DNA of 64,000 nt from Niallia sp. XMNu-256 (GTDB lineage Bacteria > Bacillota > Bacilli > Bacillales > Cytobacillaceae): positions 3,512,501 to 3,576,500 of the forward strand of contig NZ_CP137636.1 in the NCBI RefSeq assembly GCF_036670015.1. The letters run 5' to 3'. Numbering within the stretch: the stretch's first letter is position 1; every line of letters begins with the position of its first letter. The notes beneath the pieces are model-generated. The model did not search any database and was not told the origin of the DNA. It worked only from the letters and a program-made list of their open reading frames with translations. Of the stretch, positions 1,197-20,700 are shown piece after piece. A program made the translations under genes and the position numbers.

Positions 1197-1224
1197 GAGG
1201 TAAAGGACCAAAATCCCTTACCTC
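1197..1224 (-). terminator. Riboswitch-controlled intrinsic terminator in serA leader
   Basis: On the minus strand GAGGTAAGGGA and TCCTTTACCTC form an 11-bp stem with one G-U pair and a 6-nt loop, followed by TTTGTGCATTT. It starts directly after the ZTP aptamer, where the expression platform is expected. The U-tract is interrupted, so it may be a moderate terminator. Confidence 0.8.
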
Positions 1225-1298
1225 TGCCCAGGCGAACGGCTCGTTTCGATACTACGTGCTCCCTCACGGTACTCCGTGTTTCGCCAGTTACACATAGC
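1225..1298 (-). promoter_or_regulatory. ZTP (pfl) riboswitch aptamer
   Basis: The minus strand carries the ordered pfl-motif signatures. First comes ACTGGCGA (about 1281-1288), then a short hairpin CACGG-AGTA-CCGTG, then AGGGAGCACG closing stem P1 (CTATGTG with CACGTAG, one G-U). The 3' domain is CGTTCGCCTGGGCA at 1225-1238. GGCGA in the first domain is complementary to TCGCC in the second, matching the known pseudoknot. The family senses ZTP/ZMP, a signal of 10-formyl-tetrahydrofolate shortage. Placement before serA would tie serine supply to one-carbon demand (inference). Confidence 0.88.
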
Positions 1299-1314
1299 CC
1301 TTTTAATTAATTGA

Positions 1315-1373: not shown

Positions 1374-3291
1374 CGGAGTCCGAATCGGAGGACTCATTCG
1401 GACAGAACCGGGAGCAAGAGGATAACCAGAATCCGAATCCGAGACTTATTCGGACATAACCAGGAGCAAGAGGATAACCGGAGTCCCAATCGCAGCCTTA
1501 TTCGGACTGAACCGGGAGCAAGAGGATAACCGGAGTCCCAATTGCAGCCTTATTCGGACTGAACTGGGATGAAGAGGTTGACCAGAGTCCGAATTGCAGA
1601 CTCATTGGACAGAACTGGGATGAAGAGGTTGAATGGAGTCCGAATACGACACTCTTTCGGACAGAACCAGGATGAAAAGGATTCCGGAGTCCCAATTGCA
1701 GCCTTATTCGGACAGAACTGGGATGAAGAGGTTGACCAGAGTCCGAATCGGACCCTCATTCGGACAGGACTAGGAGCAAGAGGATAACCAGAGTCCGTAT
1801 CCGAGACTTATTCGGACAGAACCAGGAGCAAGAGGTTGACCGGAGTCCGAATCGGACCCTCATTCGGACAGGACTAGGAGCAAGAGGATAACCAGAGTCC
1901 GAATCCGAGACTTATTCGGACATAACCAGGAGCAAGAGGTTAACCGGAGTCCGTCTCCGACACTCTTTCGGACAGGACTAGGAGCAAGAGGATAACCGGA
2001 GTCCGTATCCGACACTCTTTCGGACAGAACCAGGAGCAAGAGGTTGAACGGAGTCCGTCTCCGAGACTTATTCGGACAGAACCGAGATGAAGAGGTTGAC
2101 CGCAGTCCGAATCCGACACTCTTTCGGACTGAACCAGGAACAATAGGTTGAACGGAGTCCGAATTGCAGCCTTATTCGGACAGAACTAGGATGAAGAGGT
2201 TGACTGAAGTCCGAATCCGAGACTTATTCGGACATAACCAAGAGCAGGAGGATGACCGGAGTCCGAATCCGACTCTCTTTCGGACAAAACCGGGAGCAGG
2301 AGGATGATCAGAGTCCGAATCCGACTCTCTTTCGGACAGGACTAGGACCAAGAGGATAACCAGAGTCCGAATCCGACTCTCTTTCGGACAGGACTAGGAG
2401 CAAGAGGATAACCAGAGTCCGAATCCGAGACTTATTCGGACATAACCAAGAGCAAGAGGTTGACCGCAGTCCGAATCCGACACTCTTTCGGACTGAACCA
2501 GGAACAAGAGGATAACCAGAGTCCGAACTCGAGACTTATTCGGACAGAACTAGGATGAAGAGGTTGACCAGAGTCCGAATCCGACTCTCTTTCGGACAGG
2601 ACTAGGAGCAAGAGGATAACCAGAGTCCGAATCCGACACTCTTTCGGACAGGACCAGGAGCAAGAGGATAACCAGAGTCCGAATCCGAGACTTATTCGGA
2701 CATAACCAAGAGCAAGAGGTTGACCGCAGTCCGAATCCGACACTCTTTCGGACTGAACCAGGAACAAGAGGATAACCAGAGTCCGAACTCGAGACTTATT
2801 CGGACAGAACTAGGATGAAGAGGTTGACCAGAGTCCGAATCGGACCCTCATTCGGACAGGACTAGGAGCAGGAGGATGACCAGAGTCCGAATCAGACTCT
2901 CTTTCGGACAAAACCGGGAGCAGGAGATGACCAGAGTCCGAATCCGACACTCTTTCGGACTGAATCGGGAGCAAGAGGTTGACCGGAGTCCGAATTGCAG
3001 CCTTATTCGGACAGAGCCGGGAGCAAGAGGTTGACCGGAGTCCGAATTGTGACCTTATTCGGACAGAACTGGGATGAAGAGGATAACCAGAGTCCGAAGC
3101 CGACACTCTTTCGGACAGGACCAGGAGCAAGAGGATAACCAGAGTCCGAATCCGACACTCTTTCGGACAGGACTAGGAGCAGGAGGATGACCAGAGTCCG
3201 AATCCGACTCTCTTTCGGACAAAACCGGGAGCAGGAGGATGACCAGAGTCCGAATCCGACACTCTTTCGGACTGAATCGGGAGCAAAAACA
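1374..3291. repeat. Array of about 37 tandem 52-bp units with hairpin cores
   Basis: I count about 37 head-to-tail degenerate units, nearly all 52 bp. Each has a core of GTCCGAAT, 8-9 variable bases, then ATTCGGAC or TTTCGGAC, followed by a purine-rich spacer such as AGGAGCAAGAGGATAACC or GGGATGAAGAGGTTGACC. The core is an inverted repeat able to form a 7-8 bp stem. Because 52 is not a multiple of 3, reading frames rotate between units and the short ORFs here do not look like genes. The array fills the space between the serA promoter and the rlmN terminator. No transposase, cas gene or long terminal inverted repeat is present. Function unknown. Confidence 0.95.
2396..2841. repeat. Higher-order duplication inside the 52-bp array
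   Basis: Positions 2396-2581 are repeated base for base at 2656-2841, an offset of exactly 260 bp or five units. Flanking positions differ (2395/2655 and 2582/2842). Elsewhere units differ at several positions, so this block points to a recent five-unit duplication by unequal recombination or slippage. Confidence 0.85.
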
Positions 3292-3326
3292 ACAAAGTCC
3301 CCTACCTCTATAAAGGTAGGGGACTT
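3284..3326 (-). terminator. Intrinsic terminator of rlmN
   Basis: A perfect 13-bp stem (AAGTCCCCTACCT with AGGTAGGGGACTT) spans 3295-3326. On the minus strand it is followed by TTGTTGTTTTT, so it ends rlmN transcription just before the repeat array. Confidence 0.85.
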
Positions 3327-3411
3327 CTGCTGAAAGCTACAAGCTTATAGATATATTTTTATCAAACAAACCGGGGAATCCCACACAATTTTCATCGGGA
3401 AGATATTTGAC

Positions 3412-4482
3412 TTATGATCTTGTTTTCTCTTTCTTCATTTGCTTACTACGCAATTGTCCACATGCTGCATCAATATCTGTTCCTTGTTCTTGACGGATAA
3501 CACAGTTAATCCCATTCTTTTTCAATGTATCATAGAACGCAAGGATGCTTTCTTTTTCACTACGTTCATATTGGATATGTTCATTGACTGGGTTATAAGG
3601 AATTAAGTTCACATACGTTAGATGACGTTTATCCTTTATTAAATTCGCCAGTTGGACCGCTTCTTCCTTATGATCGTTAACATCTTTTAATAAAATATAT
3701 TCAATCGTAATCCGGCGATTTGTTTTTTCTAGATAATATTCGATCGCTTCCATTAGCTTTTCAATCGGATACGCACGGTTGATTTTCATCACACGGCTAC
3801 GTAGCTCGTTATTTGGAGCATGCAATGATAAAGCTAGGTTCACCTGTAAATCTAGATCAGCGAATTCATAGATCTTCGGAACTAATCCGCTTGTTGAAAC
3901 CGTGATATGTCTCGCACCAATCGCCAACCCTTTTTGGTCATTGATAACCTTTAGAAATTTAACTAAGTTATCAAAGTTATCAAATGGTTCTCCAATTCCC
4001 ATTACAACAATATGGCTGACTCGTTCGTCTTTACCTTGTTCATCTAAGTGATGTTGAACATTCATGATCTGCTCAACAATCTCACCGCTCGATAAATCGC
4101 GATTTTTCGCAAGAATTCCGCTGGCACAAAAGCTGCAACCGATATTACAGCCGACTTGAGTCGTTACACAAACCGAAAGGCCGTATTTATGTCTCATTAA
4201 CACTGTTTCAATTAGATTGCCATCCTGCAGATTAAACAGGAATTTAATTGTTCCGTCTGCTGATTCTTGTTTTGTATTTAAAGTCGTTGTATGAATCAAA
4301 AAGTTCTCTTCTAATAATTGAAGAAGATCTTTGTTAATATTGCTCATTTTTGAAAACTCAGTGACGCGTTTATTATATAGCCAATCCCATACTTGTGAAG
4401 CACGGAATTTTTTGTGACCTCGTTCCAATAGCCATTCTGTCAGTTGTTCGAACGTTAATCCATAGATGGATTCTTTTTTCAT
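3412..4482 (-). CDS. rlmN: 23S rRNA (adenine-2503-C2)-methyltransferase RlmN
   Basis: The 356-aa protein is a full-length radical-SAM RlmN. The iron-sulfur motif CxxxCxxC is at C112, C116 and C119. The two catalytic cysteines of the family fit C105 (seven residues before the cluster) and C341 in [18 protein letters not shown] is the Firmicute form of the SAM-binding stretch. It methylates C2 of A2503 in 23S rRNA and in E. coli also tRNA A37. The ATG follows AGAGGGTAACTG. It stands alone with its own terminator, away from the prkC/rsgA context of B. subtilis yloM, so this genome may hold a second copy (inference). Confidence 0.93.
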
Positions 4483-4685
4483 CAGTTACCCTCTTTTCAA
4501 AAAATTCTTAGTCTATTGTACTTAATCTTTGCCCAACTAGCAATCGGATAAGCATAATTAGGTTTGTTTTTTTATGGGAATGGGTAAGCAAGACATTAAC
4601 CTACACAGATTTTTTCATTGAAGAATAAAGTAAAGTGACAGAACAAATAATGACATTGTTAGGATACTTTAAAAGGAGAGCTTCG

Positions 4686-6471: not shown

Positions 6472-6771
6472 TTATTTTTGTGCCAGATTTACGGCAGTTT
6501 CAGAGGCTTTTAAATCAACTAATAATTGTTCTCTGAGATCATGAGGGGCATAGAATCCTTTTGCGATCATAAAATTCGTTAGTTTTTCATGTGTGTCTAC
6601 AGCATCTCGCAAGTGCTCCCTTAATACGGCACGTACTTTTGGTGTGGTCACCTCGGTAATCGCAACTGAATAGTCTTTTATCGCTGCCTTCGTTGCGATT
6701 AAGAAGTCTGTGGCAATGACTTGATCCGTCATTCCCCCCATCCCCATCATATTTTGAATGAGCCCATTCAT
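6472..6771 (-). CDS. Spore coat protein, CotF/YraF family
   Basis: A 99-aa protein starting MNGLIQNMMGMGGMTDQVIA. The segment DFLIATKAAIKDYSVAITE followed by a second helix-rich part ending ASETAVNLAQK is the Coat_F pattern, a ferritin-like helical fold in spore coat proteins. Its ATG overlaps the stop of the upstream coat gene by 4 bases, so the two are translationally coupled. A homologous pair lies in the opposite orientation at 7185-7766. Transcription would be late-sporulation specific if like B. subtilis; I saw no clear SigK promoter. Confidence 0.8.
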   Translation of the reverse strand: MNGLIQNMMGMGGMTDQVIATDFLIATKAAIKDYSVAITEVTTPKVRAVLREHLRDAVDTHEKLTNFMIAKGFYAPHDLREQLLVDLKASETAVNLAQK

Positions 6772-6974
6772 TGTGTTTCCTCCCTAAGCGTTAATAACTC
6801 CTGTAATTGTTCAATGTGCTTTGTAGCCGTTGCTACGTCTTCTTCCATGATCGCTTTTAGTTCCGGGTCTTTCACCAATTTACTCATCGTTGTCGTCTTT
6901 GTTAACGTTAAATTTTTTGATGTTAATAACTCATGAACGTCCAATGTTTCGTGAAGAGCTAAATACTGCACCAT
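6768..6974 (-). CDS. Small spore-coat-associated protein, YraG-like
   Basis: A 68-aa protein with LALHETLDVHELLTSKNL near its N-terminus, a pattern shared with the YraG/YraD group of coat-associated proteins. GGGGTGG precedes the ATG. It overlaps the next coat gene by 4 bases (ATGA). Its paralogue at 7185-7391 shares LALHETL and ELKA.MEDV-type positions. Confidence 0.75.
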   Translation of the reverse strand: MVQYLALHETLDVHELLTSKNLTLTKTTTMSKLVKDPELKAIMEEDVATATKHIEQLQELLTLREETQ

Positions 6975-7070
6975 GTTTCCACCCCATTATTGGCATTTTT
7001 TCAATCATAGCGTGTCTTTGATTTCGTTAAAATATTCATCTCGTATAAAAAGCAAGAGTGGTCGGGGACA

Positions 7071-7114
7071 ATAAAGTGAAACTTTCATCAGTGGGTGCTC
7101 TTTCCCACTAATCG
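7071..7114. repeat. Degenerate copy of an ATAAAGTG...CATCAGTGGG element
   Basis: ATAAAGTG, then CATCAGTGGG, then CCCACTAAT, lying between the two divergent coat-gene pairs. The left part matches the minus-strand element at 42716-42768. The 3' arm of the hairpin is degraded here. Confidence 0.45.
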
Positions 7115-7184
7115 TTAGTTGAGGCCACCAGGCTTGTCCGTAAAGCCTGATAACGTTGTTTACTATTTGTATGGAGGTTGGGAT

Positions 7185-7391
7185 ATGCAAGAATCATTGG
7201 CACTACATGAAACCTTGGAAACTCATGAAATTCTTAATTTCAAAACCGTTTGTCTTTTAAAATCAAAACTCATGCAAGGTATTTGTTTTGATAATGAATT
7301 AAAGGCCTTAATGGAAAAGGATGTTCAACAATCAATCAAGGATATTAACGAACTTGTTACCTTTTATGAAAAAAATCAATTATTGCACTAA
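7185..7391 (+). CDS. Small spore-coat-associated protein, YraG-like
   Basis: A 68-aa protein starting MQESLALHETLETHEILNFK. The ATG at 7185 has GGAGGT eight bases upstream; the longer upstream reading has no site. It is a paralogue of the 6768-6974 product. It is followed 15 bp later by the YraF-like gene and then adhB, the same content as the yraG-yraF-adhB cluster of B. subtilis. Confidence 0.78.
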   Translation: MQESLALHETLETHEILNFKTVCLLKSKLMQGICFDNELKALMEKDVQQSIKDINELVTFYEKNQLLH

Positions 7392-7406
7392 CTTGGAGGT
7401 GTTCGT

Positions 7407-7766
7407 ATGGAGGATTACTTAGATCCGCGGAATGCTGAGGGAATGCCGAATTTAGCTGATTCTGCGATTGCAATGGATTTTCTTTTAGCCGTCAAAACAG
7501 GGATTCGTAATTATGGCTTTGCTCTTACTGAAACAGCAAGTCCAGAATTGCGGAAAATTTTATTTAAGCAAATGAACTTAGCGATTGATTTGCATGAGGA
7601 AATTTCCAATTTAATGATAAAAAAGGATTGGCTCAATCCAAGTGATTTTGCTAAACAGTATGAAGTCGATCTAAAATCAGCAGAAACCGCTGTGCAAATC
7701 GCGAAAATGAATTTATTTCCACAAGATACGGATCGGTTGGGTATGTTTGCAACCCCGAATCAATAA
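7407..7766 (+). CDS. Spore coat protein, CotF/YraF family
   Basis: A 119-aa protein with AMDFLLAVKTGIRNYGFALTE in the first half and KSAETAVQIAKMNLF near the end, the two helical blocks of the Coat_F family. TTGGAGGTG precedes the ATG. It is about 20 aa longer than its divergent paralogue at 6472-6771. It lies between the YraG-like gene (15-bp gap) and adhB (14-bp gap), so the three form one operon. Confidence 0.82.
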   Translation: MEDYLDPRNAEGMPNLADSAIAMDFLLAVKTGIRNYGFALTETASPELRKILFKQMNLAIDLHEEISNLMIKKDWLNPSDFAKQYEVDLKSAETAVQIAKMNLFPQDTDRLGMFATPNQ

Positions 7767-19113: not shown

Positions 19114-20700
19114 TTACTTTAAAAAGCCCATGAAATTTGAAAATGAAGTTACTAAATCTTGATAGTATCCGATTACTCGATCTTTGATTGTGTAGTCATC
19201 TGAAGAATTTTGTTCAGCTTTCTCTGTTTGATCTTGTTCAGTTTGATTTACTTCTTTTGTTTCTTCATCAGATGCTAGTCCCTCTTCTGTTTGAACAGTT
19301 TGTACAGAGGCAACTGGAGCTTCTTCACTTCCAGTCACTACACCCTCAACTGTAGTCGCTAGCTGGTTTTCATTCCCTAAGTTATCTACAGACACGTCTA
19401 ATGATGTATCTGGTTCTAGGTCAACATTTACTGGTTCAACTGTTCCACTTAAGGCATCGACATTTGTTAGTTCAGCAGCTTGAGCAAGTTCCTGACCAAT
19501 TAGAGTTTGATAGAATCCGACTAGACTTTGGTAGTTATTACCAAGTAATTGATATGTTGCATCAACATTTTGGTTTGATTCTTCTGAGTTAGTAGTATTT
19601 TCCTCCTGAGCACCACTTTCTGACACTTCATCTTCTCCTGGAGCTAATACACCTGGAGTTTCTGTTTCTTCCTCATTGACAACATCAGTTGGTTCAGGAG
19701 TTTCTTCTGTTACTTCGTTATCATCAGTTGTTGGTTCTTCATCAGATTCTGTTTCTGCTGGAGCTGCTGGAGCTTCTGTTCCTTCTTCTACTAATTCATC
19801 AGTTCCTGTTGTATCATCGACTACTTCGTCTTCTGATCCTTCACCAGTTTCTGTTGTATCTTCGGCTACTTCATTTTCTGCTACATCATCAGATTCTGTT
19901 GTATCTTCAGATGCTTCGTCGTCTGATACTTCATCAGATCCTGTTGTATCTTCAGATGCTTCGTTTTCTGCTACATCATCAGATTCTGTTGTATCTTCAG
20001 ATGCTTCGTCGTCTGATACTTCATTAGATCCTGTTGTATCTTCAGATGCTTCGTCTTCTGGTACTTCATTAGATCCTGTTGTATCTTCGGCTGATTCGTT
20101 TTCTGATACATCATCAGATTCTGTTGTATCCTCCGCTGATTCGTCTTCTGATCCTTCATTAGATCCTGTTGTATCCTCCGCTGATTCGTCTTCTGATACT
20201 TCTGATCCTTCAGCTTCTGATGTGTCATCGCCTGGTTCACCTTCTGCTACATTATCGTCTGATTCATCTTCTGATCCGTCATCGTCTATTTTTCCTTCTA
20301 ATGCGGCGTCATCTTCTTCAGTTTCTGGCTCTACTGGAGTTTCTGTAGCTTCTTCTACTTCTTCACCTTGTTCATCCTCATTTTTATTCGTTGTTTCATC
20401 TAAATGATTGTGGTCATGTTGTTTATTTATTTCTAAAGATTTATTTTTAGCGATTTGACTTATCATTTGCCCTTTGCCAGGAAATCCCGGATGATTACTT
20501 GCATGTTCAGATACTACTTGGCCATGATTTTTAGCTTGTTCGATTACTTCAGGAGTAACCCCATTTCTTTCAAGCTCTGCAGCTGAGATCGGTGCTCCCG
20601 CTGCTAAAAAGCCTGCCGCCATCATAGTCGTTGACATAACAAAAGGGGCAATTTTCTTTGATAATGGTTTGTTTGTTGAATTGTTCTGTTTTTTCATCAT
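19114..20700 (-). CDS. Secreted acidic repeat protein
   Basis: A 528-aa protein with a signal peptide (basic MMKKQNNSTNKPLSKKIAPF, hydrophobic MSTTMMAAGFLAAG, likely cleavage near PISAA). Residues 45-100 are a folded-looking segment with several His (NKQHDHNHL). Residues 105-370 are extremely rich in Asp, Glu, Ser and Thr and hold nine 15-residue repeats. Residues 375-528 are less acidic, with GYYQDLVTSFSNFMGFLK at the end. There is no LPXTG, GW, SH3 or LysM anchor. AAGGAGATGATG precedes the start. I do not recognise a family; a matrix, spore-surface or ion-binding role is inference. Confidence 0.75.
   Translation of the reverse strand: MMKKQNNSTNKPLSKKIAPFVMSTTMMAAGFLAAGAPISAAELERNGVTPEVIEQAKNHGQVVSEHASNHPGFPGKGQMISQIAKNKSLEINKQHDHNHLDETTNKNEDEQGEEVEEATETPVEPETEEDDAALEGKIDDDGSEDESDDNVAEGEPGDDTSEAEGSEVSEDESAEDTTGSNEGSEDESAEDTTESDDVSENESAEDTTGSNEVPEDEASEDTTGSNEVSDDEASEDTTESDDVAENEASEDTTGSDEVSDDEASEDTTESDDVAENEVAEDTTETGEGSEDEVVDDTTGTDELVEEGTEAPAAPAETESDEEPTTDDNEVTEETPEPTDVVNEEETETPGVLAPGEDEVSESGAQEENTTNSEESNQNVDATYQLLGNNYQSLVGFYQTLIGQELAQAAELTNVDALSGTVEPVNVDLEPDTSLDVSVDNLGNENQLATTVEGVVTGSEEAPVASVQTVQTEEGLASDEETKEVNQTEQDQTEKAEQNSSDDYTIKDRVIGYYQDLVTSFSNFMGFLK
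19792..20196 (-). repeat. Nine 45-bp coding repeats of the acidic protein
   Basis: Residues 169-303 are nine exact-length 15-residue units of the type SEDEASEDTTGSNEV. The last two units are the most diverged. The high identity makes length change by slippage likely. Confidence 0.9.

Follow-up and report, generated by a model that had tools for sequence, protein, structure and literature searches.

What is the long row of evenly spaced palindromes between serA and rlmN in Niallia sp. XMNu-256, and which component of the cell might read it? The window—the whole stretch of DNA analyzed here, 64,000 nucleotides long—carries this array close to its start, and a sequence-only reading had described it as about 37 units of 52 bp with inverted-repeat arms. 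TRF, a phase walk, and a comparison with shuffled sequences bear this out. The array and its surroundings are composed as follows:

1219-1301, minus strand: ZMP/ZTP riboswitch RF01750 upstream of serA (Rfam, 59.3 bits)
1376..3291, plus strand: the array, 37 units with a period of 52 bp (phase walk up to about 3291)
1378..1403, plus strand: first palindrome, an edge unit with a 10-nt loop (read from the sequence)
1741..1765, plus strand: unit 8, an example unit with both arms perfect (phase walk)
3248..3272, plus strand: last palindrome of the array (phase walk)
about 3296-3328: terminator-like hairpin after rlmN (by eye)
3412-4482, minus strand: rlmN, divergent subtype
6472-7766, opposite strands: two small CotF-like proteins (ORF list)

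Each unit combines a 25-bp palindrome, GTCCGAAT-N9-ATTCGGAC, with a 27-bp purine-rich spacer. TRF places the array at 1376-3286 with a period of 52, 36.8 copies, and 81% matches, and identity to the consensus amounts to 93% in the arms, 82% in the spacer, and 76% in the loop. Allowing at most 2 mismatches and counting both strands, the palindrome is matched 50 times, where shuffles expect 0.03. Spacing irregularities are small—a few one-base indels (53, 51, and 51)—and the unit at 1587 bears a damaged right arm. A loop of 10 nt puts the first unit one base out of phase in the walk. As its period, 52, is not divisible by three, the array is noncoding. Its flanks are those of the earlier reading, with the riboswitch on the serA side and the hairpin on the rlmN side. 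serA is an unusual gene for a ZMP/ZTP riboswitch. The RlmN of the window is 71-85% identical to that of some relatives and about 60% identical to the common RlmN, several genomes bearing both. Further along the window (19784-20299) come tandem repeats of 45, 135, and 27 bp, each period divisible by three, which lie probably inside a coding region; the two small proteins at 6472-7766 presumably resemble spore coat proteins of the CotF type.

Repeats of this size are known from Bacillus. In their passages on these repeats, Subirana and Messeguer (2021; PMC8161180) assign 1886 of 4029 to 51-53 nt and 781 of 4029 to 20-21 nt; there the repeats are called enigmatic, short words and their reverse are described, nucleoid proteins or small RNAs are proposed, and the authors state that they see no evidence of a Cas-like protein interacting with the repeats. 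Since repeats of 51-53 nt are already published, the window array adds a further example to a recognized class: the arrays described here are noncoding Firmicutes sequences with a constant period of 51-53 nt, several arrays per genome, conserved short words along with their reverse, variable sequence, and a patchy species distribution. Where that account, in the same passages, names no protein partner, a gene family is linked here to both size classes.

Within the Niallia genome, a profile built from 76 three-unit stretches, sequence only, yields 150 matches that group into 12 array loci, including three short ones of about 70-200 bp; all are located on the 4.2-Mb contig beginning at dnaA (C1). 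Loci with the arm GTCCGAAT fall at 293k-633k and 3342k-3996k, with the window array at 3514k. A scan of the whole collection, with the loop left free between 4 and 34 and the spacer between 12 and 42, returned at least 118 stretches. Among the stretches listed, 864 of 1001 pattern matches have a loop of 9 and a spacer of 27 (26 in 75 and 28 in 34 matches), and 812 of 940 spacings in 108 arrays are exactly 52. In 104 array consensuses, the arms are almost invariant and the spacers near random in sequence, at constant length. Hosts include Neobacillus, Mesobacillus, Robertmurraya, Peribacillus, Bacillus methanolicus, Aquibacillus, Natribacillus, and Ammoniphilus; other phyla account for seven of the at least 118 stretches, as listed, with a different geometry, and viral contigs hold one match, again of another geometry, so that viral carriage was considered and set aside. 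The sequence-only reading had accepted that an array found in one strain only, or randomly spaced in relatives, would count against it; the relatives favor it, with the 52-bp phase recurring across Bacillales. Conservation of this phase across genera is also in line with its proposal that near five helical turns per unit bring all sites to the same face. The third half-site that it saw in the loop exists in some units of the window array and is not conserved between arrays.

The spread is patchy. With at most one mismatch allowed, one or more sites occur in 48 of 101 relatives, many of them at control level; two species of the same genus have no site at all, and phased pairs occur in 18 of 299 genomes of the order. 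Among 20 evenly spaced 10-kb stretches of genome G049, one array was found. In a comparison of insertion sites at rlmN-serA, rlmN was found in 40 of 41 genomes, and in the two relatives examined (G002 and G021) neither serA nor an array lies beside it. By simple ORF calls, with 30 of 104 arrays at locus edges left out, the neighboring genes are convergent at 27, tandem at 41, and divergent at 6 of the 74 arrays for which both neighbors are known, so that arrays are scarce between divergent genes (6/74). Two pairs of species share orthologous arrays between the same gene neighbors (L078/L154 and L049/L112); the L078/L154 arrays are about one unit apart in length and share decayed edge units.

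Which gene, then, accompanies the arrays? Comparison of the genes beside them brought up a family with a NERD domain and a zinc ribbon, whose members end beside arrays in five genomes; of these lead copies, two are broken (L058 and L141). The Niallia genome has two members with clear arrays:

C1:293789-294703: first NERD gene, with an array adjoining its end that has the same arms as the window array
C1:4130199-4131101: second NERD gene, with an array of GGTCTTCA-N9-TGAAGACC on its 5' side

A NERD homologue was found in 63 of 101 relatives: 22 of 22 with at least four sites and 41 of the 79 others (hand count). Among the matches listed, 90 NERD loci were examined (30 automatic and 60 chosen by hand), and in 76 of these a repeat with a period of roughly 52 bp (or a multiple of it) lies at most 250 bp from the 3' end of the gene. 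Seven more loci with an array raise the total to 83:

L274, L303, L331: array on the 3' side (self-match)
L280, L300: array on the 5' side only
L308, L359: array further off or on both sides

With L279, L309, and L315 at contig ends and L319 reading as an assembly gap, 86 loci can be evaluated, and 83 of them bear an array beside the NERD gene; at L282, L305, and L334 an array beside the gene was looked for and none was found, L282, a NERD gene of genome G001 (58% identical), counting against the link. Another 15 NERD genes were examined: 11 lie no more than 250 bp from an array, one has an array at 502 bp, and one sits at a contig end. Control loci of rlmN, fetched in the same way, gave 0 of 29 vs 28 of 30 for NERD loci. 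The orientation of array to gene is fixed (64 vs 12), the purine strand lying opposite the NERD gene in 64 of 76 cases. As judged from sequence, a genetic link between the NERD family and the 52-bp arrays is well supported; among the open-access papers listed on NERD and on 52-nt repeats, no link between the two is seen.

Each NERD gene appears to have its own palindrome. The arms differ between genes—GTCCGAAT..ATTCGGAC, GGTCTTCAT..ATGAAGACC, GTCCTTCAT..ATGAAGGAC, GTCCATCAT..ATGATGGAC, and others—and many of these palindromes span 25-27 bp within the 52-bp unit, the automatic choice of palindrome being poor for some loci. Over 74 loci, array similarity grows with protein identity (Mantel p 0.002), a correlation that is weak and small outside close relatives; it follows the C-terminal part of the protein (partial p 0.0005) rather than the NERD domain (p 0.62), in line with the protein-bound platform pictured earlier. 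For the second NERD gene of the Niallia genome, an own array with other arms was predicted beforehand and then found. Its motif has 54 sites in this genome (control 2), mostly at 52-bp steps, with clusters at about 787, 3239, 3317, 3468, 3508, 3676, 3948, 4067, and 4130 kb. The window array pairs with the first NERD gene because the arms match. This gene is invisible in the window because it is located on the far side of the origin, at a distance of about 1 Mb; that no cas or transposase gene lies nearby, as stated by the sequence-only reading, is correct, with the addition that a matching gene exists at that distance. Three genomes, all draft assemblies, which can break at arrays, speak against the pairing: G057 has 112 sites and one NERD match, distant and with another motif, and no close cognate gene was found in what was examined of G003 (24 sites) and G050 (20 sites). 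Overall, we regard a partnership between protein and array as highly likely.

A neutral minisatellite that grows by slippage alone would fit the differing unit number between species at an orthologous locus and the decayed edge units. Strongly against it stand the near-identical arms beside near-random, constant-length spacers in 104 consensuses, the gene linkage with its control, and the finding of a second motif family, and its probability is practically negligible. The arrays could also be transcribed as hairpin RNAs, serving as small RNAs or a sponge. The 52-nt repeats of B. coagulans are reported as transcribed in the respective parts of PMC8161180 and PMC8625621—the main text of a B. methanolicus transcriptome paper does not contain the word "repeat"—and most arrays lie 3' of NERD genes. 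The stems argue otherwise. No covariation was counted on the named stems, and of 258 distinct arm variants (1017 units, 108 arrays) 178 are unpaired, 71 wobble, and 9 changed on both sides to form a new pair, in a test that is limited by a site finder that required near-consensus arms. The uncompensated arm changes noted in the window thus hold more widely. Together with the absence of any Rfam family above gathering score on the window array and the purine strand opposite the NERD gene, this makes an RNA role very improbable; the results are in line with arrays that act as DNA and not as RNA, as the sequence-only reading had held.

The 52-bp period is one of several. NERD genes in two other families have 52-bp repeats in 7 of 7 cases examined, two of these with fewer than 3 copies. 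Of 37 more distant NERD genes (L403 left out, its frame being broken), 31 have repeats of a 20-21-bp class no more than 350 bp away, counted as periods of 20-21, multiples of 40-43 and 60-63, or about 103; at the same threshold, the rlmN control gives 0 of 29. Expressed in helical turns, periods of 20-21, 41-42, 52, and 62 come to approximately 2, 4, 5, and 6, and at some distant NERD loci the best period differs (82, 93, 285, and 329). A third NERD gene of the Niallia genome (C1:3981811) has a weak 21-bp repeat with 2.7 copies only. It is probable, though by no means settled, that a single family of NERD-zinc-ribbon nucleases has both the 52-nt and the 20-21-nt class as its cognate sites, with a private palindrome or word per gene, adjoining and dispersed arrays, whole-turn phasing, and several specificities per genome, which would constitute a new nuclease-repeat system.

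What kind of protein might this be? Pfam recognizes the NERD domain in 56 of 56 aligned homologues and a zinc ribbon weakly in some. Setting aside 7 broken copies of the 90 leaves 83 intact ones, in which E45, D77, K92, and Q120 are invariant (83/83). Of these copies, 80 have D or E at position 90, and the four zinc cysteines are conserved in 81, 81, 83, and 83, respectively. We take the pattern of E45, D77, (D/E)90, and K92 to be a PD-(D/E)XK-type active site. This site looks intact, and domain together with active-site signature predicts a nuclease. The C-terminus may be HTH-like; Pfam recognizes no HTH in it. A PDB search by sequence gave no clear match, and the AlphaFold model (pLDDT 45) is too poor to use. 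Matches in PADLOC and NCBIfam are confined to weak ones to PglW and MADS6, which are defense proteins with NERD domains. Such a nuclease could attack incoming DNA, with the chromosomal arrays holding or tuning it, and several NERD-array pairs per genome would suit this role; a clear match to a PADLOC defense family is absent and a search of viral contigs found no NERD relative, leaving defense or self-marking distinctly improbable.

We propose instead that a dimer of the NERD protein would sit on each 25-bp palindrome via its C-terminal zinc-ribbon/helical part. With 52 bp making five turns, all dimers would come to lie on one face of the helix and, therefore, might load jointly. The protein would nick or cut DNA at the arrays—a step held tentatively, with slightly less than even confidence—and repair between units would change copy number, homogenize units, and occasionally seed new arrays elsewhere. 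The one-unit difference and the decayed edges of the orthologous array L078/L154 are as this turnover predicts. On balance, we favor the view that the window array is one of about 12 dispersed site clusters for the NERD-zinc-ribbon protein of C1:293789-294703, in a nuclease-repeat system similar to RAYT-REPIN. The linkage, the gene-specific palindromes, the dispersed arrays that match the resident gene, and the invariant PD-(D/E)XK-type residues can be read from the genomes; binding, cutting, and a host role we infer.

Position on the chromosome bears on whether the NERD protein might rather coat the arrays without cutting and organize or anchor the nucleoid, akin to the nucleoid proteins that Subirana and Messeguer left unnamed in their passages on the matter. 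Strict whole-turn spacing and many arrays per genome agree with such an architectural platform, and a NERD protein of staphylococci, SmdA, has a function in cell division according to the functional part of PMC9040797. In the Niallia genome, clusters of both motifs lie, among those listed, all within about 0.97 Mb of dnaA, the exception being one lone site of the second motif at 2279k. This origin-proximal clustering was looked for in G049 and G101 and, among the best matches listed, not seen. Centromere-like origin-proximal sites hence hold for the Niallia genome and fail in these two, and the iteron or centromere function suggested by the sequence-only reading is not borne out. Array number, moreover, swings between sister species, which is odd for a core chromosome function, and the catalytic residues are invariant in 83 of 83 copies. 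We consider a purely architectural role unlikely. Replication-strand polarity, read by hand from the best matches listed, is found at 10 of 12 loci in the Niallia genome, 11 of 12 in G060, 16 of 16 in G101, and 5 of 6 in G036 (one ambiguous locus left out). As a general rule, polarity was rejected with G049, where 6 of 15 of the best matches listed follow it and the origin was checked by GC skew. Part of the polarity may be compositional because the purine skew of the spacer defines the orientation.

The favored reading of dispersed sites for a resident NERD protein has its closest parallel in REPIN-RAYT (Bertels and Rainey 2011; PMC3116915), which, in the parts that describe the pair, likewise comprises dispersed extragenic palindromes in families tied to adjoining genes. 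There, Y1 tyrosine transposases go with short REP doublets; here, a NERD protein goes with long arrays phased at 52 bp, so that a restriction-like nuclease would take the place of the Y1 transposase. A Y1 or RAYT transposase was itself tried as array partner and rejected: Y1_Tnp is widespread without linkage to arrays, occurring in 24 of 26 genomes, array-rich and array-poor alike, and beside none of the GTCCGAAT arrays among the places listed in the Niallia genome. CRISPR shares palindromic repeat words, regular spacing, and a linked gene; unlike CRISPR, spacers are alike within an array (82% identical to the consensus), no cas genes adjoin—none stands beside the window array among the long ORFs listed—and no spacer acquisition is seen. 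SmdA has the NERD domain as well, and PMC9040797 describes it, in the part on its sequence, as membrane-bound and devoid of several of the best-conserved residues of that domain; a link to repeats is not seen there. New here is the linkage of repeat and gene, the repeats themselves being of a known class. In the literature, the Bacillus repeats of constant length and variable sequence are a puzzle with no protein attached, and the linked gene family makes the question answerable. If the protein binds or cuts as the sequences suggest, the family would offer a large natural set of protein-site pairs with fast-drifting specificity and explain hypervariable intergenic arrays.

Words similar to the arms turn up elsewhere. 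The optimized site of Streptomyces BldC, as given in the binding-site part of PMC5859096, contains GTCCGAAT; BldC binds direct repeats at 9-bp steps, unlike the 52-bp arrays, and the match, which had brought up a BldC-type wHTH protein as a candidate partner, is taken as coincidence. In four Chlamydiota MAGs (L063, L116, L130, and L120), TGTCCGAAT/ATTCGGACA clusters with other spacings are found immediately upstream of a gene for a Fic-like protein, whose N-terminus appears HTH-like when domains are read by eye. Fic-wHTH proteins were considered as array partner on account of these TGTCCGAAT repeats and judged unrelated. Runs of TGTCCGAAT-like words can also be seen by eye beside primase/helicase-like genes in L148 (about 1600-1900) and L178 (about 4450-4600), the sources being a Synergistales MAG and a viral contig.
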